Shown here: positions 37,769-51,995 of the stretch, piece by piece
Layout: each line of letters begins with the position of its first letter
Numbering within the stretch: the stretch's first letter is position 1
Assembly: GCA_026005175.1 (NCBI GenBank)
Contig: BPKO01000002.1
Coordinates: forward strand, 32,501 to 96,500
DNA length: 64,000 nucleotides
Direction of reading: 5' to 3'
Source of the DNA: Candidatus Tectimicrobiota bacterium
Lineage (GTDB): Bacteria; Tectomicrobia; Entotheonellia; Entotheonellales; Entotheonellaceae
Translations under genes and position numbers: made by a program
The notes under the pieces: model-generated
The model's input: only the letters and a program-made list of their open reading frames with translations
Databases searched by the model: none
What the model was told of the DNA's origin: nothing

Positions 37769-38893
37769 ATGCAGCACAACGTGGAATGGAAAGAGATCCC
37801 ACCGCAACGCTTGCCGCAGCTACAGGAGGTCTTCTCCCGCCACGTGCAGGCGCTGGCCGAGCAGGTGGCCGATTTTCCTCCGGATGCCGTGTACCTGCAC
37901 GCCGTGGTTGCCCAGCACCCGCAGCGGCCGCTCGCCCGTGTAGGACTGACCCTGCACCTGCCCAAGCGCGTGCTGTCGGCCCGCGAAGAGCGCGACGACG
38001 TAGAGACCGCCTTGCATGAGGCCTTTGCCGAACTCGAGCGCCAGCTGGCAAAACACAAGGCCTTCCTGCGCCAGGAGCACCTCTGGCGGCGGCCGGCCCG
38101 GCGGCAGGCGCTGCGGGAGCGGCTCAAGCTGGAGTCAGTGCCGCTTGCCGAGCGCGAGCGCGCCTTGCTCAACGTCCTCATTCAGCAGCACCTGCACAAG
38201 CTTTACAACTTTGCCCGCCGCGAAATTGCCGTGCTGCAAGCCACGGGCGACTTGCTTCCGGGCGACCTCACCCCCGAGGAGGTGGTAGACGCGGTGGTGC
38301 TGCGCGCCGCGCGCGAGCTGCACACGCGGCCGCCGCGCCTGGAGGGAGACCGCTGGCTGCTGCGCCTTGCCGTCGAGGTACTGCGCAGCGAAGTGCGGCG
38401 GCGCCGGGCAGAACGGGCGGCGGCGCTGCACCTCGAGCAGCCAGCGCCGCCCGATAGCCAGACCTCTGACGACGAAATCTACGCATTTTACCAACCCGAC
38501 GAAAAGCTGCGGCTGGAAGACCTGGTTCCCGACCCCTATATGCCCACCCCGGAGGAAGTGGTGGCCAGTCGTGACTTGCAGCGCTACCTCAACCAGACGC
38601 TGGCCATGCTGCCCGCCACCTGGCGGCAGGCGTTTGTGTTGCACGACATCGAGGGGTGCACGGTGGCCGAAACGGCCCACATCCTGGACGTGTCCGAGGA
38701 AGAAGTGCGGCAGGCCTTAGACCACGCCCACGCCTTCCTGCGCCAGAAGCTGGCCGAAGCGGAGCTCCAGCCGGCCCCGGGGAGGACCATCACCGCCGAG
38801 CAGTTTTTTGCCAGCACCGCCCAAGTCGAGGTGCCAGAGGCCTACCGTACTGCCCTCGAAGACCGGCTGCGCCCTTCGTCAGAGGCGGGGTAG
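37769..38893 (+). CDS. RaiA/HPF-like domain fused to sigma-70-like regions
   Basis: This 374-residue protein joins two normally separate modules. Residues 1 to about 102 resemble the ribosome-hibernation factor RaiA/HPF, especially ARVGLTLHLPKRVLSAREER and ALHEAFAELERQLAKHKAFL. Residues about 130-205 look like sigma region 2 (LHKLYNFARREIAVLQATGD, LTPEEVVDAVVLRAAREL). Residues about 278-340 are a clear sigma region 4 helix-turn-helix (LPATWRQAFVLHDIEGCTVA, ETAHILDVSEEEVRQALDHA). It may couple ribosome state to transcription, or the sigma part may be a protein-interaction or RNA-binding module; both are inference. It converges with the proteostasis island. Confidence 0.75.
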   Translation: MQHNVEWKEIPPQRLPQLQEVFSRHVQALAEQVADFPPDAVYLHAVVAQHPQRPLARVGLTLHLPKRVLSAREERDDVETALHEAFAELERQLAKHKAFLRQEHLWRRPARRQALRERLKLESVPLAERERALLNVLIQQHLHKLYNFARREIAVLQATGDLLPGDLTPEEVVDAVVLRAARELHTRPPRLEGDRWLLRLAVEVLRSEVRRRRAERAAALHLEQPAPPDSQTSDDEIYAFYQPDEKLRLEDLVPDPYMPTPEEVVASRDLQRYLNQTLAMLPATWRQAFVLHDIEGCTVAETAHILDVSEEEVRQALDHAHAFLRQKLAEAELQPAPGRTITAEQFFASTAQVEVPEAYRTALEDRLRPSSEAG

Positions 38894-39174
38894 GGGGTGG
38901 CCGCCACAGATGGCGCGGCCTCGTGGTTGCTCACCAGCGGCGGTGGGGTCTCTGGAAGGCGAAAGTAAGGACAGGCGGTGTACTCGCCAAAGCAGTAGCG
39001 CGCCTGGTGCGCTTTCTCGATGGCGACGGGGGAAAGCGCCCCGCGCAGCAGGCGCCAGCTCCAGCGCCAGCGCAGGCGGGCATAGCAGGCGTTGCGCCGG
39101 TGGGGCATGGGATAAAAAGTGCGGTCGTTGTTGCGTTCGCCAAGAAAGGGACAGACGTGCTCGGGCGCGCTCAT
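38842..39174 (-). CDS. Small four-Cys protein, function unknown
   Basis: This 110-residue protein begins MSAPEHVCPFLGERNNDRTF and has the spaced pattern CPFLG...P..RRNACYAR...QARYCFGEYTACPYF, a four-Cys arrangement seen in small proteins of several phyla and likely to bind a metal. The start overlaps the stop of the zinc-ribbon gene (ATGA at 39174-39171), so the two are coupled. The 3' end overlaps the RaiA/sigma gene by 52 bases in convergent orientation; the last 40 residues look low-complexity. Confidence 0.6.
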   Translation of the reverse strand: MSAPEHVCPFLGERNNDRTFYPMPHRRNACYARLRWRWSWRLLRGALSPVAIEKAHQARYCFGEYTACPYFRLPETPPPLVSNHEAAPSVAATPYPASDEGRSRSSRAVR

Positions 39175-39374
39175 CGTCCCGCTCCTTCTCGATGGTGCCC
39201 GCCAGCTTCCGCCGCGGCCGGCCGCGGGGCCTGGCGGTCCGCAGCCGTTGCCGCCGTTTCCAAGGGGGCTCCGGGATCGTAGGGCCTTTGGCAAATGTGG
39301 CAGACGCGGGGGCGGCCGGGATGGGCCGGCGCGGGAAGGGTGAAGAGCTTACAGTAGCGGCACCAGCGTTTCAT
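39171..39374 (-). CDS. Small zinc-ribbon protein
   Basis: This 67-residue protein begins MKRWCRYCKLFTLPAPAHPG and has two CxxC knuckles (CRYC and CHIC, in RPRVCHICQRPYDPG), typical of a zinc ribbon. The rest is a low-complexity Ala/Arg-rich tail. It overlaps the stop of the protease gene upstream (ATGA at 39374-39371) and the start of the four-Cys gene downstream, forming a tightly coupled trio at the end of the proteostasis island. Confidence 0.6.
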   Translation of the reverse strand: MKRWCRYCKLFTLPAPAHPGRPRVCHICQRPYDPGAPLETAATAADRQAPRPAAAEAGGHHREGAGR

Positions 39375-40228
39375 GGCGCTTCCCCCAGCACGTCGTGCAT
39401 CCGGCGCCCCGAGTTGCCCGAGCGCCGCGGAATAGGCAAGTACTCCACGGAAGGCGAGCGCCGCACCGGCTGGGGAAACAGGCGCATGAGCTGGAGCACT
39501 TCCTTGGGCATGTCGGCGCTCACCGGCAGGCCAAGCTGCTGGGCCATGGTAAAGGTGATGGGGTAGTCGTGCGTCCAGGTGCCTTCGGAAAGCAAGCGCG
39601 CCAGCTGCTCGGCCTTCTCTTCCGGGTAGCGGTCGCCAAGGAGCTCGCGCACGCTCTCGCGCACTTGGGCAATCGCCTTTTCGGCCTGATCGGCGAGAAT
39701 CAGCGTCTGGTCGTCCAGCTCGGCCACCGGCTTGCGGGCCACGGCTTTGAGGATCGAAGCGGCCGGAAACTGCCCCAGCTGCGGATCGACGGGTCCGAGC
39801 ACCGAGTGGCGGCACATGACGATTTCGTCTGCAGCCAGGGCGATCAGCGTGCCGCCCGACATGGCGTAGTGCGGCACGAACACCGTCACTTTGGCCGGAT
39901 GGTCTTTGATGGCGCGGGCGATCTGCAGCGAAGCCAGCACCAGCCCCCCAGGGGTATGCAAGATCAGGTCGATGGGCACGTCCTTGTCGGTCATCTGCAC
40001 GGCACGCAGGACTTCTTCGGAGTCGTTGACATCGATGAAGCGAAAGACGGGAAAGCCCAGCAGGCTCATCGTTTCCTGCCGGTGCACGAGAAGGATCACC
40101 CGCGAGTTGCGCTGCCGCTCGAGGCGTGCCAGCATCCGCTGCCGTGCCGCTTCCAGCATTTTCTGGCGCAGAATCGGCTGCAGGGCGGAGATCATGAAGA
40201 ACAGCCAGAAAACGTCCAAAGGTCCCAT
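39371..40228 (-). CDS. Membrane-anchored ClpP/SppA-fold serine protease (SDH proteinase family)
   Basis: This 285-residue protein starts with a hydrophobic anchor (MGPLDVFWLFFMISALQPIL) and a helical linker. Its crotonase-like core has LILHTPGGLVLASLQIARAI and the putative nucleophile Ser in VPHYAMSGGTLIALAADEIV, followed by GPVDPQLGQFPAASI and THDYPITFTMAQQLGLPV. This matches the serine dehydrogenase proteinase (PF01972-type) group related to ClpP and SppA. The anchor suggests degradation at the membrane. It follows the rhomboid protease gene by 21 bases. Confidence 0.85.
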   Translation of the reverse strand: MGPLDVFWLFFMISALQPILRQKMLEAARQRMLARLERQRNSRVILLVHRQETMSLLGFPVFRFIDVNDSEEVLRAVQMTDKDVPIDLILHTPGGLVLASLQIARAIKDHPAKVTVFVPHYAMSGGTLIALAADEIVMCRHSVLGPVDPQLGQFPAASILKAVARKPVAELDDQTLILADQAEKAIAQVRESVRELLGDRYPEEKAEQLARLLSEGTWTHDYPITFTMAQQLGLPVSADMPKEVLQLMRLFPQPVRRSPSVEYLPIPRRSGNSGRRMHDVLGEAP

Positions 40229-40249
40229 GGGTGTCTCCCTTTGTCGCGC

Positions 40250-40978
40250 TTACCACCGCATGAAGGCCCGCTCGATGTCGTACTCGTCGTCCTGAAAGGG
40301 ACGCCGAGGGGGTACGAAGAACGGGCGCAGGGCGATGCCGGCGGCAAAGCCGCCGATGTGGGCCCACCAGGCAATCCCGCCCACTTGCCCGGCGGCGGCC
40401 AGCGACAGCACGCCGCTAAAGAGCTGACTCACAAACCACATCCCTAGATAGAACACGGCCGGAATTTCGACAAAGAACGGCCAGAAAAAGACCGGCACCA
40501 GGGCAATGATACGTGAGTGGGGGAAGAGCAGAAAGTATGCTCCCATAACGCCGGAAATGGCTCCGGAGGCGCCCACGGTGGGCAGCGTGGAGTGGGGGTT
40601 GGTTAGCCAGTGCACCAGGCCGGCGGCCAGGCCGCAGAGAAGGTAAAAGAGCAAAAAGCGCAAAGGGCCCATGCGGTCTTCGACGTTGTCGCCGAAGATC
40701 CACAGCGTCCACATGTTGCTCAGGAAGTGCAGCCAGCCACCGTGCAGAAACATGCTGGTCAGAAACGGCCAGTAGTCGTCCAGGGGAAGTCCAAAGACCA
40801 CCGCCCACTCGGGATGCGTGTAGCGCGCCGGCACCAAGCCGAAGCGGTAGAAAAAGGCTTCCAGCTCTGCTTCGGACAGCCCCAGCTCGTAGAGAAAGAC
40901 CAGGGTGTTGGCGGCAATCAGCAGCCAGACCATAAGCGGCGGCTGGCGGCTGGGAATGGTGTCTTTGACCGGAAACAC
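40250..40978 (-). CDS. Rhomboid family intramembrane serine protease
   Basis: This 242-residue protein has six or more hydrophobic segments. The catalytic Ser is in TVGASGAISGVMGAYFLLFP and the catalytic His in WWAHIGGFAAGIALRP; upstream are TSMFLHGGWLHFLSNMWTLW and the WR-like loop region. Rhomboids cleave transmembrane substrates. GTG 40978 is chosen because AGGAGAAGGGG lies directly upstream; the frame is open further. It is followed by the SDH-type protease, giving two membrane proteases in a row. Confidence 0.9.
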   Translation of the reverse strand: MFPVKDTIPSRQPPLMVWLLIAANTLVFLYELGLSEAELEAFFYRFGLVPARYTHPEWAVVFGLPLDDYWPFLTSMFLHGGWLHFLSNMWTLWIFGDNVEDRMGPLRFLLFYLLCGLAAGLVHWLTNPHSTLPTVGASGAISGVMGAYFLLFPHSRIIALVPVFFWPFFVEIPAVFYLGMWFVSQLFSGVLSLAAAGQVGGIAWWAHIGGFAAGIALRPFFVPPRRPFQDDEYDIERAFMRW

Positions 40979-41011
40979 CCCCCCTTCTCCTGGAAAGGCT
41001 CCTTGCAACGA

Positions 41012-41039
41012 GGCGGGGCACACCGCGGTGTGCCCCGCC
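41012..41039. other. Perfect 28-bp palindrome between clpB and the rhomboid gene
   Basis: The 28 bases are identical to their own reverse complement, centred on CCGCGG; each arm is GGCGGGGCACACCG. It lies 41 bases past the clpB stop and about 34 bases before the rhomboid start on the minus strand. It lacks a T-run. It could stabilise or attenuate the transcript or bind a dimeric protein. Confidence 0.7.
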
Positions 41040-41080
41040 GCGGGTTGCCAGGGCAAGCGGATGCAGAACCGCCTGCGCCC

Positions 41081-43756
<2,676 letters not shown>

Positions 43757-43761
43757 GGTTC

Positions 43762-44095
43762 TCACCTCCGCTGTTCTTCACGTGGCTGCATGGCGTAGGC
43801 TTGCAGCTGTTGCACGCGAGCTTCGAGTTCTTCGATGCGCTCGAGCAGATCCAAAATCAGCCCGGCAGCGCTGTAGTTAATGCCCAGGTCCCGCCCGCAG
43901 GCGCAGCACGCGGCGGATTTTGAGTGTGACCTCGGGCGGAAACAACTCGGCATAGCCCTCGGCCGGGTCGATCACCCCCAAAGCCACCAGACGCTGCACC
44001 AGCAGCGGGTGGAGGCCGCAGCGTGCTGCCACTTCCTCCAGGGTCAGAAGGTTCCACGGCCGCTGCCGGGGCACCAGACAGGCGATCCGCGTCAT
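43762..44095 (-). CDS. cbpM: CbpM-like chaperone modulator (MerR-type HTH), one frameshift
   Basis: It starts [20 protein letters not shown], with [20 protein letters not shown] forming a MerR-type helix-turn-helix, then [13 protein letters not shown]. One extra G near 43900 breaks the frame; the other frame continues [20 protein letters not shown] and a coiled coil [13 protein letters not shown]. This is the layout of CbpM, a specific inhibitor of CbpA-type DnaJ proteins, and it directly follows the dnaJ/cbpA-like gene, as in the classic cbpA-cbpM pair. Restored length is about 110 residues. Confidence 0.82.
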
Positions 44096-44110
44096 CGTCT
44101 CTCCCTCCCC

Positions 44111-45059
44111 TCAGCGCGGGCGTGGCTTGAAGTGCGACACCCGGGGCCAGCTCGGCAAAGAGCCGCGCTTCTTCGGGCGTGAGCTGCTCGGGCACGACGA
44201 TTTTGAGCTCAGCGTAAAGGTCCCCCGGCCCCGTGCGCGGATCGGGAAAGCCCTTGCCGCGCAGGCGGATCTTGCGTCCAGAGGAAGAGCCGGGCGGGAT
44301 CTTCACGCTCACCGCCCCTTCCAGGGTGGGCAAGGTAATCTCCGCGCCCAGGGCCGCCTCCCACGGGGTAATGGGCACTGTGGTGTAGAGATCCTTGCCT
44401 TCGAGGCGGAACGTGGGATGCGGCAGCAGCTCGACCACGAGGTAGAGGTCGCCCGGCGGTGCCCCGCCCGTTCCCGGTCCGCCTTGCCCGGCCAGGCGGA
44501 TGCGCTGGCCAGGCCGCACCCCTTTGGGGATGGTAACCATGAGCGTCTTGCTCTGGCCGGTGACGGGATCGGTGAGCGAGATCTCTCGCTGGCCGCCGCG
44601 CGCGGCTTCTTCCAGGGTAAGCGCCAGGCGGGCTTCTCGGTCCTCGCCCCGCGCCCACCCACTCCCACTGCCAGCCGCGGGGTCCGGCACCGCGGCCGGC
44701 CCGGCGCCCGCCGGTACCAAAGAGCTGCTCGAAGAGCGAGCCAAACCCGGAGAAGAGGTCTTCGGCGCCGGCGCCGCGGCCCCACATCGAACCACACCTC
44801 TTCGTAGCCCGGTGGTGGGGTGCCGCCTTCCTGCGCTGCTTTCCAGGCTGCCCCGTAGCGGTCGTACTTGGCGCGCTTTTTCGGGATCCTTGAGCACCTC
44901 GTAGGCTTCGCCGATTTCTTTAAACTTTTCCTCGGCGCCCGGATCCTTGTTCACGTCCGGGTGGTACTTGCGCGCCAGCTTGCGGTATGCCCGGTGGATC
45001 TCTTCCTGGGTGGCGTTCCTTGGCACCCCCAAGATGGCGTAGTAGTCCTTGAAAGCCAT
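44111..45059 (-). CDS. dnaJ: DnaJ/CbpA-type co-chaperone, several frameshifts
   Basis: The J domain is intact ([20 protein letters not shown], with HPD in [20 protein letters not shown]). The Gly/Phe linker (about 44,700-44,880) is broken by at least two indels. The C-terminal peptide-binding domains read [40 protein letters not shown] and [20 protein letters not shown]. No CxxCxGxG zinc fingers are present, so it is CbpA-type. A last indel near 44,143 hides the natural end VSHFKPRPR and TGA at 44,113-44,111. It lies between dnaK and cbpM. Confidence 0.87.
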
Positions 45060-45113
45060 GCCTGCTCTCCTCGGGAGCCGCGCTTTGCAGCGTCACCGTG
45101 CGCTCGGGGGCCA

Positions 45114-45144
45114 GACCCCCACCCCGGGCGAAGGGGCGGGGGTC
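45114..45144 (-). other. G+C-rich stem-loop between dnaK and dnaJ
   Basis: Two 12-base arms (GACCCCCGCCCC and GGGGTGGGGGTC on the minus strand) pair with one G-U around a seven-base loop, in the 93-base dnaK-dnaJ spacer. It may set the dnaK:dnaJ transcript ratio by attenuation or mRNA protection. No T-run follows. Confidence 0.45.
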
Positions 45145-45152
45145 GCCAGGCG

Positions 45153-47027
45153 TCACTTCTTCTCGGTAAAGTCGGCATCCACCACGTCTTCGCCGCCCGC
45201 GCTGCGGCTGCCGGCGGCCGCACCCGCCCGCCGGTAAGCAGAAGCACTGAGCATGTGCAGCATCTGCTCCAAGTCGCTGGCCAACTCGCGGATACGGGAG
45301 ACCGGCGCGTTCTCTTTTAGTGCCGTGCGCACGTCGGCCACCAGCTGTTCGGCACGCGCCTTTTCGTGCAGCGGCACCTGCTCGCCCATCTCGCGCAGGG
45401 TGCGCTCTACCTGGTAAGCCAGGGAGTCGGCGTGGTTGCGCAGCTCGATCTCCTCGCGCCGCGCCTTGTCTTCGGCCGCATGCGCCTCGGCTTCGCGGAT
45501 CATGCGTTCGATCTCGCTCTTGTCGAGGTTGGTGCTCCCCGAGATGGTGATTTTCTGCTCCTTGCCCGTGTCCTTATCGCGGGCGGTGACGTTGAGGATG
45601 CCGTTGGCATCGATGTCGAACGTCACCTCGATTTGCGGCACGCCGCGCGGTGCCGGCCGGATGCCTTCGAGCCGGAAGCGGCCAAGCATGCGGTTGTCTT
45701 TGGCCAGCTCGCGCTCGCCTTGCAGCACCACGATGTCTACCGCCGTCTGGTTGTCCTCGGCGGTGGTGAAGATTTCGGTGCGGCGTGCCGGAATGGTGGT
45801 GTTGCGCTCGATGATCTTGGTCATCACCCCACCAAGCGTCTCCACTCCCAGCGACAGCGGTGTCACGTCCAGCAGCAAGACGTCGGAGACCTCGCCCTTG
45901 ATGATCGCCGCCTGCACTGCGGCGCCCAGCGCCACCACCTCGTCGGGGTTGACGCTCATGTTGGGTTCCTTGCCGCCGGTGAGGCGCTTTACCAGCGCCT
46001 GCACGGCCGGCATGCGCGTGGCGCCGCCCACCAGGATCACCTCGTCGATGTCCTTCTCGGTGAGCTTGGCATCGGCCAGCGCTTGCTTCACCGGCCCCAG
46101 GCAGCGCTCGACCAGGTCATGGGTGAGGGCTTCGAACTTGGCCCGCGTCAGGGTCATGTTGAGGTGCTTGGGCCCGGTGGCATCGGCGGTGATAAATGGC
46201 AGGCTGATCTGCGTCTGCGCCGCGCTCGAAAGCTCGCACTTGGCCCGCTCTGCCGCCTCCACCAGCCGCTGCAAGGCCTGCGGGTCCTTGCGCAGCTCGA
46301 TGCCGTGTTCTTTCTTGAACTCCTCGGCCAGCCAGTCGACGATGCGCTTGTCGAAGTCGTCGCCACCCAGGTGGGTGTCGCCACTGGTGGCACGCACCTC
46401 GCACACCCCCTCGCCGACGTCGAGGATGGAGACGTCAAAGGTACCGCCGCCCAAGTCAAAGACCATCACCGTTTGGTGCTGCTTTTTGTCCATGCCGTAA
46501 GCCAAGGCCGCGGCAGTGGGCTCGTTGATAATGCGCAGCACGTTGAGGCCGGCGATGGTGCCGGCATCCCGCGTGGCTTGCCGCTGCGCGTCGTTGAAGT
46601 AAGCCGGCACGGTGATCACCGCCTCGGTCACCTTTTCGCCCAGGAACTTGGAGGCGTCCTCCACCAGCTTGCGCAGCACCATGGCCGACACCTCTTCCGG
46701 GGCGATGAGCTTGCCGTGCACTTCGAAGCGTACGGCGTCGTTGGGGCCGCGCACCACTTTGTAAGGCACGTTCTTGATCTCGTCCTGCACTTCGTCCCAC
46801 TTGCGGCCGATGAAGCGCTTGGCCGAGAAAATCGTGGCTTTGGGGTTAAGCACCGCCTGGCGCTTGGCGATTTGCCCCACCAGGCGCTCGCCGTCTTCTT
46901 TGAAGGCCACCACCGAGGGCGTCACCCGCCCCCCTTCGGCGTTGGGGATAATGGTCGGGCGGTCGCCCTCCATGTAAGCAATGGCCGAGTTGGTGGTTCC
47001 CAGATCGATTCCTACGGCTTTAGCCAT
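45153..47027 (-). CDS. dnaK: Chaperone protein DnaK (Hsp70)
   Basis: This 624-residue Hsp70 reads [20 protein letters not shown], with [20 protein letters not shown], the phosphate loop [16 protein letters not shown] and adenosine motif [13 protein letters not shown]. The interdomain linker [19 protein letters not shown] leads to the substrate-binding domain and lid. The C-terminus ends [12 protein letters not shown], as in normal DnaK. ATG 47027 follows GAGGAGGAAG. It is intact, unlike its neighbours, and sits between degP and dnaJ in the island. grpE is not in the window, which suggests that this may be a second, dedicated dnaK. Confidence 0.95.
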
Positions 47028-47065
47028 ATGACTTCCTCCTCTCTGGCATCCTCGCTGTCCGTCAC

Positions 47066-48500
47066 TCAAGGCGAATGACGATGAAGTGAGTGGCCCCCGC
47101 GGTACTCGACCAGCAAGAGCACCCGCTCTTTTGACTTGGCCAGGGCTTGCAGGAACGCTTCCGTGTTGCGCACCGGGGTGCGGTTGACCTCACGGATGAG
47201 CATCCCGGGGCGCAGACCAGCCATGGCGGCGGGGCTGCCAGGCTCGACCTCGGAGACGATGACGCCCTCCGCCTCCTCGTAGCCGAAGCGCTCCGCCATC
47301 TCCGGGGTCAAGTCCTGGACAGCAAACCCGAGCCGCTCAAGGAGCTCTTCCTCAGCAGGCGCTGCCGCCATCTCTTCGGGCAGTTCGCCAATCGTCACGG
47401 TAAGCTCTAGCTGCCGGCCGTTGCGCACCACGGTCACCGTCGCTTTCGTGCCCGGCGGGGTGAGCGACACCGTGTTGCGCAGGTGGGCGGCGTCTTTGAC
47501 CAGCGTGCCGTCAAAGGCCACGATGACGTCGCCGCGTTTCAGCCCGGCCTTGTCCGCTGGCGAGTCCTTGATAACGTCGGCCACCAGCACCCCTTCGCTG
47601 CGCTCTAGCCCGAACGACTTGGCTAGGTCTTCGGTCAAGTCCTGAATGTGAACCCCCAGATAGCCGCGCACCACCTTGCCCCGGGTGATCAGCTGCTGCT
47701 GGATCACCTTGGCCATATTGATGGGAATGGCAAAGCCGATGCCCATGTAGCCACCGCTGCGGGAGAAAATGGCGGTGTTGATGCCGATGACTTCACCGCG
47801 CAGGTTGAGCAGGGGGGCCGCCCGAATTGCCGGGGTTAATGGCGGCATCGGTCTGGATGAAATCTTCGTAATCGACGATGCCCACGCGGCTGCGTCCCTT
47901 GGCGCTTACCACCCCCACGGTGACGGTGTGGACAAGGCCAAAGGGGTTACCCACCGCCACCACCCACTCGCCCACTTCCAGGGCATCGGAGTCGCCCAGG
48001 GGCAGGGTGGGCAAGTTGTCGTCTTTAATTTTGATCACCGCCACGTCCGACTTGGGGTCGGTGCCGATCAGCTTGGCTTCATACTCGCGGCCGTCGGCCA
48101 GCTTGACGGTGATGCGGTCTGCTTCCCCCACCACGTGGTGGTTGGTAAGGATGTAGCCATCTTGCGAGACAATGAAGCCCGAGCCCTGCCCCATCTGCCG
48201 GAAGCGCCGCGGCTGCTGCGGGAAGCGCCAGCGGAAGAAGCGGCGGAAGAACTCCTCGTTAAACAGATCAAACGGGTCCTCAAAAGGGCCGCGGCGCTCG
48301 ACGGTCCTCTCTACCTGGATGTAGACCACGGCCGGGATGGCCTGCTTGGCCACTTGCGTAAAAGCCTGCGACAGCTGCTGCACGGCCTCGGACTGGGCCG
48401 GCAGGGCCGCTGCCGGCCGGCCAAGGCCGGCAGCGGCCAGAACTGCCGCGGCCAGGGCCAAACAGACACGTGCCTGATGCGCGAGCCGGATCCGTTTCAT
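47066..48500 (-). CDS. degP: Periplasmic serine protease DegP/HtrA, one frameshift
   Basis: A signal peptide ([20 protein letters not shown], cleavage near ALPAQS) is followed by a trypsin-like domain with His in [15 protein letters not shown], Asp in [16 protein letters not shown] and Ser in INPGNSGGP. The frame breaks right after this motif near 47,815 (one extra base in GGGGGGCC); it resumes [20 protein letters not shown]. Two PDZ domains follow ([20 protein letters not shown] and a second starting [18 protein letters not shown]). Restored length is about 477 residues. It degrades or chaperones misfolded envelope proteins. Confidence 0.9.
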
Positions 48501-48528
48501 AGCGAGCCTTTCCTTGTTGCCTTTTGTT

Positions 48529-48999
48529 TCAGCCGCGGATTTTCACCTTGATGCGCCGTGCCTTGGCCTGCTCGGTCTTGGGCAAGGTGACGCGCAGGAC
48601 GCCGTTTTTGTACCGGGCAGTAGCGCGGTCGGCGTCTACCTCGCAGGGCAAGGGCACGGTGCGCACAAAAGCGCCGTAGCTGCGCTCGGCGTAGTAGTAG
48701 TGCCGGCCTTTTTCTTCGGCGCTGCGGCGCTTTTCGCCGCGCAGCACCAAGTAGTCGCCGGTCACTTCCACGGTGAAGTCGTCTTTGTCCAGGCCGGGAA
48801 GCTCGGCCACCACGATGACCTCGTCGTCGGTTTCCTCGAGATCAATCAGGGGTCCACCGCCGATGATCAGCGACGGCGCCCAGAATTCCTCATCCTCCGG
48901 CGCACGGCGCCGCGGCAGCCAGCGGTCCAGCACGCGGTGAATGTCGTCCCGCAGGCGCGAAAGCGCCTGTCGCCATGGAACAGGAAGCCACTGTGCCAT
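48529..48999 (-). CDS. Small heat-shock protein Hsp20 (third of three)
   Basis: This 156-residue sHSP has an alpha-crystallin domain ([20 protein letters not shown] to [12 protein letters not shown]) and a C-terminal I-K-V motif (RRIKVKIRG). The N-terminal arm is Arg/Trp-rich. sHSPs hold unfolding proteins for refolding by DnaK and ClpB, encoded downstream. It differs clearly from the other two Hsp20 copies here, so it is not a recent duplicate. Confidence 0.92.
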
Positions 49000-49056
49000 C
49001 CTCTTTCCTCCTCTGCGTGCGGCCTGGGCAGGACAGTGCCTGCCCAGGCCGAGTTG

Positions 49057-49455
49057 TTACGCCACTTTTACTTCGATCTTGCGCGGCTTGGCCTCCTCTG
49101 CCTTGGGCAGGTGGAGGGTCAAGACGCCGTGCTTGAGTTCTGCCGTAATGCGGGATTCGTCGATTTTTTCCGTGAGCTCGAACTGCCGGAAGAAGTTAAC
49201 CAGCTCGTATTCGCGGTAAATGGGGTCGGCCTGCACCGCGGGCCGCGCCCGACCGCGAATGGTCAGCACGTGGTTGTCAACGCGCACTTCCAAGTCGTCT
49301 TTGCTCACCCCTGGCAAATCGGCCATCACCACCAGTCCCTCAGGGGTCTCGTAGATGTCCACCGGCGGCGCCACGTAGCGCTCCCGCTCCCGGGTGCCTT
49401 CTGCCGTGGGCGCCACCTGCTGCGTCTGCTGGGTTGCCACCGTCCGTTCTACCAT
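49057..49455 (-). CDS. Small heat-shock protein Hsp20 (second of three)
   Basis: This 132-residue sHSP has a Gln/Thr-rich N-terminal arm (MVERTVATQQTQQVAPTAEG), an alpha-crystallin domain with VDIYETPEGLVVMADLPGVS and LKHGVLTLHLPK, and a C-terminal I-E-V motif (RKIEVKVA). ATG 49455 follows AGGAGGAAC; a longer frame adds seven residues. It lies between the other two Hsp20 genes. Confidence 0.92.
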   Translation of the reverse strand: MVERTVATQQTQQVAPTAEGTRERERYVAPPVDIYETPEGLVVMADLPGVSKDDLEVRVDNHVLTIRGRARPAVQADPIYREYELVNFFRQFELTEKIDESRITAELKHGVLTLHLPKAEEAKPRKIEVKVA

Positions 49456-49481
49456 CGCCGTTCCTCCTGTGCACAATGCGG

Positions 49482-49934
49482 TTAGGAGACCTGCACGTTA
49501 ATTTGCTTGGGTTTGACACGTTCGGCCTTGGGCAGGGTGACCACCAGCAGGCCGTTTTTGTAGTCGGCCCTCACGTTGTTCTCGTCCACCTCGAGCGGCA
49601 GCTCGATGGTGCGCACGAAGCGGCCCGTGGCGCGCTCGCTGCGGTGGAAGGCCTCAGGCCTGACATCCTCCGGCACCCGCCGCTTTTCCCCGGCCAAGGT
49701 GAGGGTGTTGCGCAGCACCGAGATATCCAGCGAGGCCGGATCCACACCTGGCGCCAGCGCCTCCACATAGAGGGCGTCGCGGTCGGCGTAAATGTTGACC
49801 AGCGGGTAGCGCCGTGCGGCACGCCCGGGCAAAAACGCAGTGCGGAAAAAGGGCTCGGTACGGAAGCCAAAGTCTTCAAAGGCGCGGTCGATTTCGCGCC
49901 GCAGCGCCTCCATGGTTTCCCACAAGTCAGCCAT
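49482..49934 (-). CDS. Small heat-shock protein Hsp20 (first of three)
   Basis: This 150-residue sHSP begins MADLWETMEALRREIDRAFE, then FFRTAFLPGRAARRYPLVNI, an alpha-crystallin domain ending YKNGLLVVTLPKAERVKPKQ and the C-terminal I-N-V motif. A strong GAAGGAGGTGAG precedes the ATG. It is the first gene behind the sigma-54 promoter at 50006-50023, with a leader of about 60 bases. Confidence 0.93.
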   Translation of the reverse strand: MADLWETMEALRREIDRAFEDFGFRTEPFFRTAFLPGRAARRYPLVNIYADRDALYVEALAPGVDPASLDISVLRNTLTLAGEKRRVPEDVRPEAFHRSERATGRFVRTIELPLEVDENNVRADYKNGLLVVTLPKAERVKPKQINVQVS

Positions 49935-50005
49935 CGTTGCTCACCTCCTTCTGCTGGCGTTGTCGCTTGCCGCCCCGCGCGGGGAGGGCTTCCGCCACCA
50001 AGTGT

Positions 50006-50023
50006 AAGCAAGAGGCGTGCCAA
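50006..50023 (-). promoter_or_regulatory. Sigma-54 (-24/-12) promoter of the hsp20-degP-dnaK operon
   Basis: On the minus strand the sequence is TTGGCACGCCTCTTGCTT. It matches the sigma-54 consensus TGGCACG-N4-TTGCW at every fixed position, with GG and GC at the required ten-base spacing. Transcription would start near 49,995, about 60 bases before the first Hsp20 ATG. The gene for a GAFTGA-type sigma-54 activator lies just upstream, at 50432-51995. Confidence 0.88.
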
Positions 50024-50082
50024 CTCTGTAAGTCGTTGATAATTCGAGTTTTTTCAATTCTCCCGATTGCAATCCGGGGCAG

Positions 50083-50135
50083 TGCGACGTCGCGTGCGAC
50101 GTCGCAGCGTTGCGTGCGACGGGTTGCCTGCGACG
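50083..50135. promoter_or_regulatory. Repeated TGCGAC boxes, putative enhancer (UAS) for the sigma-54 activator
   Basis: Two copies of the palindrome GCGACGTCGC (50084-50093 and 50096-50105) are followed by two direct repeats, TTGCGTGCGAC (50110-50120) and TTGCCTGCGAC (50125-50135), 15 bases apart. They lie about 90-140 bases upstream of the predicted sigma-54 start, the usual distance for enhancer sites. The binding protein is inferred to be the adjacent regulator. Confidence 0.6.
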
Positions 50136-50139
50136 GGCG

Positions 50140-50439
50140 TCAGAGGCCGCAGTCGCGCAGGCGCTGGAGCAACTCGGCCGGGGTGGCACGCCCGATGAGG
50201 CGAAAGAGGGGGCGGCTGCGGTAGTAGACGACCAAGGCGGGCGAGCCGTAAATGCCGTGAGCTTGCGCCCAGTCGCGGCAGTCGGCCAGGGCAAGGCGAA
50301 AGACCGGCACGCGTCCGAAGCGTTCGATGTCGCGCAGGAGACGGTCCATCTCGGTGCCCGGCGCGTGATCGTCTTCCCAGACAACGACCACTGCCAGACC
50401 CGCATAGCGGCGGAGAAACGCCTCCAGCTCGTCAAGCAT
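50140..50439 (-). CDS. Thioredoxin-fold protein without CxxC
   Basis: This 99-residue protein has a thioredoxin-like pattern: [20 protein letters not shown] in place of the W.xxCGPC loop, [20 protein letters not shown], and the cis-Pro segment [20 protein letters not shown]. The active-site Cys pair is missing, so it cannot be a standard disulfide reductase. It overlaps the end of the sigma-54 regulator gene by eight bases and so is co-expressed with it. A chaperone-like or sensor role in the stress regulon is inference. Confidence 0.7.
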
Positions 50440-51995
50440 GGCCTGACTCCGAGGGCACCGTGCCGGCTTGAGCCATGGCTTCGAGGTCGGTACGGGTCAT
50501 GCCCAGGGCTTTCAGGTGCCGGTAAAGCGTGGCCTTGTGCACGCCCAGCCGGCGCGCGGCCGCCGTCAGGTTTCCGCCTGTCTGACAAAATGCCGCGGCA
50601 ATCCGCTCGCGGGTGAGCGGCGCCTGCCGCACGGCCAGCGGGCGGCGGTCGACGCGCGTGGCCGGCTCGGCTGCGGCCGCTTCCGACAGCGCCGAGAGGG
50701 CAGGCAGCGCGGCCCGCGCCGGCGGCGGCGGCACCAGGGGGGACGAGGCCACCCGTCGCGTGGCGACGTTCCAGGCGCCGGGGAAGAAACGCCAGCGCTC
50801 TTCTACCCATTCCTCAAAGGCGCGGCGCCCGATGACCTCTCCCGTGGCTTCCACGTAGACGCGCTCGAGCACGTTGCGCAGTTCGCGCACGTTGCCGGGC
50901 CAGCTGTAGCTCTGCAGCAACGCAATCGCCTCGGGGGTCAGGCCGCGCACGGGCCGCCCGTATTTTTGCTGCAGCTGCTTCAGGAAGTAGGCCACCAGCA
51001 GCGGAAGGTCTTCCAGGCGCTCGTGCAGCGGCGGCATGTGCAGGCGCAAGACGGCCAGGCGGTGGTAGAGGTCGGCACGAAACGTGCCGCGCTCTACCGC
51101 CAGCTCCAGCGGCACGTTGGTGGCGGCAATGAGGCGGACGTCAACGGGCAAGGGCTGCTCGGCGCCCACGCGTTCGATCACCCCCTCTTCGAGCACCCGC
51201 AGGAGCTTGGCCTGCGTCGTCACGGGCAGCTCGCCGATCTCGTCGAGAAAGAGGGTACCGCGGTGTGCCCGCTCGAAGCGTCCCTTATGGGTGCGGATGG
51301 CACCGGTAAAAGCGCCGCGCTCGTGGCCGAACAGTTCCGATTCCAGCAGTTCGCTCGACAGGGCGGCGCAATTGACTGCCACAAAGGGCTCTTCGCGGCG
51401 GGGACTGCAGGCGTGGAGGGCACGGGCTGCCAGCTCCTTGCCCGTTCCGGTCTCGCCGGTAATCAGCACCGGCGCTCCCGTGGGACCGTACACCTCGATT
51501 TTACGGATGACGGCGCGCAGCGCGGCCGAGCGTCCCACCAGCCCGTAGAAGTCGCGCACCGCCGGCGACTCGACGGTGACGGCCGGGGGCCGCGACTTCT
51601 TCCAAGCGCAGGGCCACCACGGCTTGCAGCGCCGCCGCTCGCCGCAGCCTGAGTCCAGCCTGCACCAGCACGGTGCGCGGGGTGCCGGTGGCGTCGCGGA
51701 AGCTCAGGCGGTAATCGCGCACCGGGAACCCTGAGGCCAGCACTTCTTCAACCACCACGCCGAGCCCGGGAATGATCGGTTCCACCGTCTCGGCCAGCGG
51801 ACGCCCGCGCAGTGCCTCGACCGGGCGGCCGGTCCACGCCGCCACGTGTGGCGCCACCTCTTCCACCACCGGCGTGCCGTCGTCAAGAAAGGCGACGATG
51901 AGCTCCGGCGTAATGGGCGCCAGCGGCGCCGCCTCCTGCGCGCGCCTGATGGGTGCCAGGCGCCCTGCTGGCTTCTCTGTCGGCATGGGTTCCAT
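50432..51995 (-). CDS. Sigma-54-dependent transcriptional activator (PAS-AAA-Fis HTH), one frameshift
   Basis: The N-terminal 130 residues form a PAS-like sensor ([40 protein letters not shown]). One extra C near 51,590 (GGCCCCCGGCC) breaks the frame; it resumes [20 protein letters not shown]. The AAA+ domain has Walker A GETGTGKE, the sigma-54-contacting GAFTGA loop, Walker [11 protein letters not shown] and [17 protein letters not shown] Fis-type HTH ([20 protein letters not shown]) ends the protein. No receiver domain is present, so the signal is probably a ligand or redox state sensed by PAS. It most likely drives the sigma-54 promoter at 50006-50023. Confidence 0.9.

Follow-up and report, generated by a model that had tools for sequence, protein, structure and literature searches.

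A probable sigma-54-dependent proteostasis operon next to a PAS-containing activator gene in an Entotheonella-group genome

Among known chaperone gene clusters, the dnaK-grpE-dnaJ-dafA-clpB operon of Thermus is comparable to the locus analysed here, a row of chaperone and protease genes from a genome (G000; 3.99 Mb, 77 % complete) of the Entotheonella group, which is known from marine sponges. The window, the whole 64-kb stretch of DNA examined, is G000:C2:32501-96500, and positions are counted from its first nucleotide. Sigma-54 promoters are silent until an activator spends ATP, the sigma-32 and HrcA systems being leakier, and a chaperone set behind such a promoter would therefore be off without its signal. 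From the sequence, we consider it likely that this locus is a sigma-54-dependent proteostasis operon, with a PAS-containing activator, a palindrome and a perfect -24/-12 promoter followed by chaperone and protease genes. Together with the presence of the same switch before small heat-shock genes of close relatives, this arrangement suggests that the chaperones are under stress control of an unusual kind.

Sigma-54 control of chaperones has already been predicted elsewhere. A 2025 study of sigma-54 regulons found chaperones enriched in Planctomycetota and Bacteroidota, with -24/-12 promoters, as in the locus described here, before GroEL, GroES, IbpA, GrpE, DnaJ, DnaK and Clp ATPases (PMC12316311). 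What differs in G000 is the linked activator, the predicted enhancer palindrome, unique in the genome, and the probable combined chaperone-protease operon. Tectomicrobia and Entotheonella are unmentioned in the text of PMC12316311, and no report of sigma-54 chaperone control for this lineage was found in the open-access literature.

The stress-tolerance islands of enterobacteria (tLST/LHR) are similar in idea, since a single locus there combines Hsp20 and thioredoxin with DegP and a disaggregase of the Hsp100 type. However, the G000 locus has ClpB, DnaK and CbpA in place of ClpG, as well as a sigma-54 promoter; the genes published for tLST1 (PMC8290217) do not include dnaK-cbpA, and no YfdX, HdeD or Kef was seen in G000. 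An earlier sequence-only reading of this DNA had been loosely reminded of these loci while noting different content, and this holds. The dnaK-cbpA-clpB clusters of four other genomes (G023, G170, G080 and G116) share a second-type DnaK, a DnaJ without zinc finger and ClpB, often with Hsp20 and an SDH-type protease, but in these clusters dnaK is neither preceded by a sigma-54 consensus nor accompanied by an activator gene. As in the CbpA-CbpM pair of E. coli, a CbpA-type DnaJ is followed by a small MerR-like protein, but the CbpM-like protein of G000 is short and was named from two weak matches (PF13591, E 0.044; PDB CbpM 3ucs, E 0.99) together with its position.

Of the genes listed in the earlier reading, 12 lie tightly packed on the minus strand from 51995 down to 39371. 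The features are given below, with gene identities from Pfam/NCBIfam profile matches unless noted otherwise.

50432-51995, minus strand: PAS-AAA+-Fis sigma-54 activator, a bacterial enhancer-binding protein with a GAFTGA loop (PF00158, 2e-68; PF02954)
50140-50439, minus strand: thioredoxin-fold protein without CXXC (structure prediction and fold search; adjoins the activator in two relatives too)
50083-50106, no strand: predicted enhancer, or upstream activating sequence, TGCGACGTCGCACGCGACGTCGCA, sole copy in the genome
50007-50022, minus strand: -24/-12 sigma-54 promoter TGGCACGCCTCTTGCT, perfect consensus
49482-49934, minus strand: Hsp20-1 (PF00011; homologues downstream of sigma-54 sites in the relatives G001, G002 and G003)
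49057-49476, minus strand: Hsp20-2 (PF00011; homologues at the same three loci as Hsp20-1)
48529-48999, minus strand: Hsp20-3 (PF00011)
47066-48500, minus strand: HtrA/Do-family serine protease with PDZ domains (PF13365 and PDZ; TIGR02037)
45153-47027, minus strand: second-type DnaK (TIGR02350, 992 bits against a cut-off of 822)
44100-45059, minus strand: CbpA-type DnaJ (J-domain and DnaJ_C, zinc-finger match absent)
43877-44095, minus strand: CbpM-like modulator, 72 aa (weak match and position after CbpA)
41081-43756, minus strand: ClpB disaggregase (TIGR03346 best)
40250-40972, minus strand: rhomboid protease (PF01694)
39371-40228, minus strand: SDH-type ClpP-like membrane serine protease (PF01972; NF047768, 430 against a cut-off of 250)
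38842-39177, minus strand: small Cys-containing open reading frame (ORF), doubtful (family match absent)

The grouping of chaperone and protease genes on one strand that had been proposed earlier is borne out by these matches, and predicted structures and fold searches support the PAS and thioredoxin folds. The pair of small Cys proteins also proposed is reduced to the doubtful ORF at 38842-39177. The gap before hsp20-1 is about 205 bp and holds the promoter, and all other gaps are shorter than about 125 bp, those before CbpA, ClpB and rhomboid measuring 93-120 bp. The CbpA frame continues beyond its expected end, a probable indel.

The promoter TGGCACGCCTCTTGCT is the only zero-mismatch -24/-12 site in the window. 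Its GG and GC dinucleotides are correctly placed and spaced, and it sits between the activator/thioredoxin pair and hsp20-1. The distance from its end to the start codon of hsp20-1 is 73 bp, and the transcript start is expected near 49996. Perfect sites number 27 in the whole of G000 (1 with the reversed pattern), 22 in G001 (reversed, 3) and 14 in G004, a class-level relative (reversed, 0). Because of this excess, sigma-54 appears to be in use in G000, even though the assembly has no rpoN. Other perfect sites of G000 (L180, L182, L189, L192 and L146) lie in front of genes for short exported proteins and a pseudopilin, which resembles a regulon of the PEP-CTERM type. Sigma-70 promoters and terminators showed no excess over shuffled sequences; the single sigma-70-like site found lies inside dnaK, a frequency expected by chance.

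The 220 bp preceding each sigma-54 chaperone promoter of G000 and of the four relatives compared with it (G001 to G004) were searched for inverted repeats. In G000, the 24-bp palindrome TGCGACGTCGCACGCGACGTCGCA lies 61-84 bp upstream of the promoter. Related palindromes were found at the hsp20 promoters of G002 (TGCAACGTCACACGGCGTTGCA) and G003 (TGCAACGTCGCACGCCGTTGCA), and a one-mismatch palindrome (TGCAACGTTGCACACAGTCGCA) is present at -93 from the hsp20 promoter of G001. The pattern TGCRACG-N6..10-CGTYGCA occurs once in each of G000 and G003, at the hsp20-1 and hsp20 promoters, respectively, three times in G002, one copy being at its hsp20 promoter, once in G001, elsewhere, and not at all in G004; reversed controls gave 0-2 copies. 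Among 60 perfect sigma-54 sites examined in the five genomes, only four are accompanied by a palindrome with 0-1 mismatch, and all four are hsp20 promoters; the next-best palindrome has 3 mismatches. None was found at the G004 promoters. The palindrome is predicted to be the enhancer of the linked activator.

The activator has an N-terminal PAS fold (structure prediction and fold search), the AAA+ sigma-54 interaction domain with its GAFTGA loop and the Fis DNA-binding helix-turn-helix (HTH). Orthologues are present in G002, in G003 and, with the 5' part cut off by the end of the contig, in G001, and the recognition helices of all four are nearly identical (GVH-K/R-A/V-TLYR; one is GVHKVTLYRHM). 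No orthologue was recognized in G004, the genome that also lacks the palindrome. The activator and thioredoxin-fold genes are adjacent in G000, G002 and G003, and the latter product has WEDDH in G000 and WQEGC in G002 and G003 where CXXC would be. A contig scan based on the activator recovered a full-length orthologue with its thioredoxin partner only in two Entotheonella genomes; the other 72 loci contain generic activators, two of them with dnaK and one with a Clp-like match in the same stretch. In G004 (L196; G004:C252, 4268-7185), the gene for another activator is immediately followed by a perfect sigma-54 site and groES-groEL. The HTH of this activator is different and it was therefore not counted as part of the same circuit.

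Perfect sigma-54 sites precede hsp20 in G001, G002, G003 and G004 (twice) and clpB in G002 and G003. In G001, the site is followed by hsp20-1, hsp20-2, a J-domain fragment and a dnaK of the housekeeping type. In G002 and G003, a site with hsp20-1 and hsp20-2, a site with clpB, and the activator-thioredoxin pair occupy three separate places. In G004, a site precedes hsp20, a gene for a 238-aa protein and dnaK, and there is a second sigma-54 hsp20. Placing chaperones behind sigma-54 sites is therefore a trait of the lineage, and in G000 they are gathered in one row beside the activator. The sigma-54 control proposed earlier is strengthened by the perfect promoter, by a palindrome that has no second copy in the genome and lies at a distance typical of enhancers, and by conservation of promoter, palindrome and activator in three relatives. 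In gene order across genomes that hold the activator, a comparison which the sequence-only reading had suggested, linkage of activator and chaperones is found in G000 only, the activator being located elsewhere in the relatives.

The island DnaK is not the sole or housekeeping copy. A dnaK followed by grpE (named from its sequence) is found on contig C4, and in a tree of DnaK proteins the C4 protein and those of G001, G002 and G003 form a 100/99 clade, separate from the 100/100 clade that holds the island DnaK, the G004 protein (G004_C616) and DnaKs of six other genomes. The bootstrap was not settled and the deeper forks of this tree are rough. Perfect CIRCE elements precede two groEL genes and hrcA, all outside the island, and the C4 dnaK lacks both CIRCE and a sigma-54 site. 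As a scan of the window allowing up to 3 mismatches detected no CIRCE, control of the island as an HrcA/CIRCE dnaK operon was rejected. The earlier reading had seen no CIRCE here and had raised a second, specialized DnaK, with a further dnaK to be sought beside grpE or hrcA, and this agrees with what was found. A dnaK-cbpA-clpB cluster is present in four of the six clade-mate genomes and includes the SDH protease in two; none of the four has a sigma-54 site before dnaK. This core is a wider cluster that occurs in other groups without such sites. The island DnaK is 88 % identical to that of G004.

We propose that the activator, encoded just upstream together with its thioredoxin-fold partner, would bind the palindrome and loop to the sigma-54 holoenzyme at the -24/-12 promoter, making contact via its GAFTGA loop. 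ATP use by the activator would open the promoter and switch on hsp20-1, hsp20-2 and hsp20-3, with htrA, dnaK2, cbpA, the cbpM-like gene, clpB, rhomboid and the SDH-protease gene most likely in the same transcript. Holding, disaggregation, refolding and envelope and membrane proteolysis would then be supplied together, apart from the HrcA/CIRCE circuit of groEL and hrcA. Induction may be by heat or by oxidative or envelope stress. A redox or protein-damage cue is suggested by the PAS domain and by the thioredoxin-fold neighbour, which may itself have a regulatory role.

Several observations weigh against this proposal. RpoN was not found in G000 or G001 using two Pfam domains and the G002 protein as query, both assemblies being incomplete, and this is the main hole in the case, though it is most simply explained as a gap in the assembly. 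In G002 and G003, perfect sigma-54 sites do not outnumber those of the control (6 versus 6 and 6 versus 5), and the loop that contacts sigma-54 reads GAFTSA in both activators (L072 and L073) where GAFTGA would be usual. No palindrome accompanies the clpB promoters of these two genomes, and the activator therefore does not account for all sigma-54 chaperone promoters. The two halves of the palindrome are spaced differently in G000 than in the other genomes, by 2 bp. As the palindrome consensus was derived from the very loci tested, this was not a blind test; what speaks for the consensus is that it is rare across whole genomes, that different genera agree on it and that it occurs together with the activator. 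Finally, ClpB has no translatable frame in the present assembly.

Loss of RpoN from the organism itself, with the activator working at sigma-70 promoters or as a TyrR-like repressor, would explain the failed searches in G000 and G001 but is very improbable. The GAFTGA loop of the G000 activator is intact, the perfect -24/-12 site is suitably placed, a genome without sigma-54 would hardly keep 27 perfect sites (control, 1), RpoN is present in G002, G003 and G004, and the G000 assembly is 77 % complete. The condition of ClpB raises another doubt. Frameshift-aware alignment revealed about 24 indels between 43566 and 41684 in this 2.7-kb gene, as well as one frameshift in htrA, at a C6 run (47816), and one or two in the activator gene near 51560-51592. 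The density in ClpB (41684-43566) is unusual; DnaK, the Hsp20s and the downstream proteases keep intact frames. Were ClpB a decaying pseudogene, the operon would lack its disaggregase, but this is improbable. The indels are mostly single extra bases which, like the break at the C6 run in htrA, are the pattern expected of uncorrected reads, and 75 % identity to the intact G002 ClpB persists over 852 aa. For these reasons, and given the intact DnaK and Hsp20 frames, the ClpB indels are probably assembly errors.

Sigma-54 control may instead cover only the hsp20 genes, perhaps with htrA, leaving dnaK2-cbpA-cbpM-clpB and the proteases as an old cluster downstream with its own promoters. The separate hsp20 and clpB loci of G002 and G003, each with its own sigma-54 site, the dnaK2-cbpA-clpB(-SDH) clusters elsewhere that have no such site before dnaK, and the room for promoters in the 93-120 bp gaps are all consistent with this arrangement. 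However, the short gaps on a single strand, the chance-level sigma-70-like site inside dnaK, terminator-like matches no more frequent than in shuffles, and the position of the closest dnaK2, that of G004, likewise behind a sigma-54 hsp20 promoter, make it rather unlikely. It is very doubtful indeed that the locus is mobile and belongs with the tLST/LHR stress-tolerance islands. The shared gene types are in keeping with such an origin, and so is the 88 % identity of DnaK2 to the protein of the class-level relative G004, which suggests transfer since no family member was found to have DnaK2, but the disaggregase matches ClpB (TIGR03346) best and ClpK and ClpG far less well, so that the dna(orf1)-hsp20-clpG/K core is lacking, and the G+C content of the island equals that of its surroundings. 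We retain the sigma-54-dependent operon as the preferred reading.

In a broader survey, 110 dnaK 5' regions were compared, mostly one per family and from the dnaKs most like that of the island. A sigma-54 consensus (up to 1 mismatch) on the coding strand precedes dnaK in 16 of them, 5 being perfect, compared with 1 for the reversed pattern, 1 for the other strand and 0.1 for shuffles. The 16 sites sit 42-153 bp upstream of dnaK and represent many families (L013, L014, L030, L264, L296 and 11 others). The survey suggests that sigma-54 chaperone control reaches far beyond the island locus, the figure of about 15 % being an estimate for this sample only. The broadest interpretation would be that, in the Entotheonella group, a dedicated activator and sigma-54 together switch on small heat-shock proteins and a second DnaK-ClpB machine under proteotoxic stress, and that in a sizeable fraction of bacteria (about 15 % of sampled loci) sigma-54 drives dnaK directly, so that chaperones would be controlled in a third major way in addition to sigma-32 and HrcA/CIRCE. 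This we put forward tentatively, at somewhat less than an even chance. Since activator, predicted site and target genes are named, the switch can be tested in a laboratory host even though the organism is uncultured.

The convergent neighbour of the row (37769-38893, plus strand) encodes a 374-aa protein that joins an N-terminal HPF/RaiA ribosome-hibernation domain (PF02482) to a sigma-70 factor of the extracytoplasmic function type (TIGR02937, above cut-off), an odd, stress-linked fusion.

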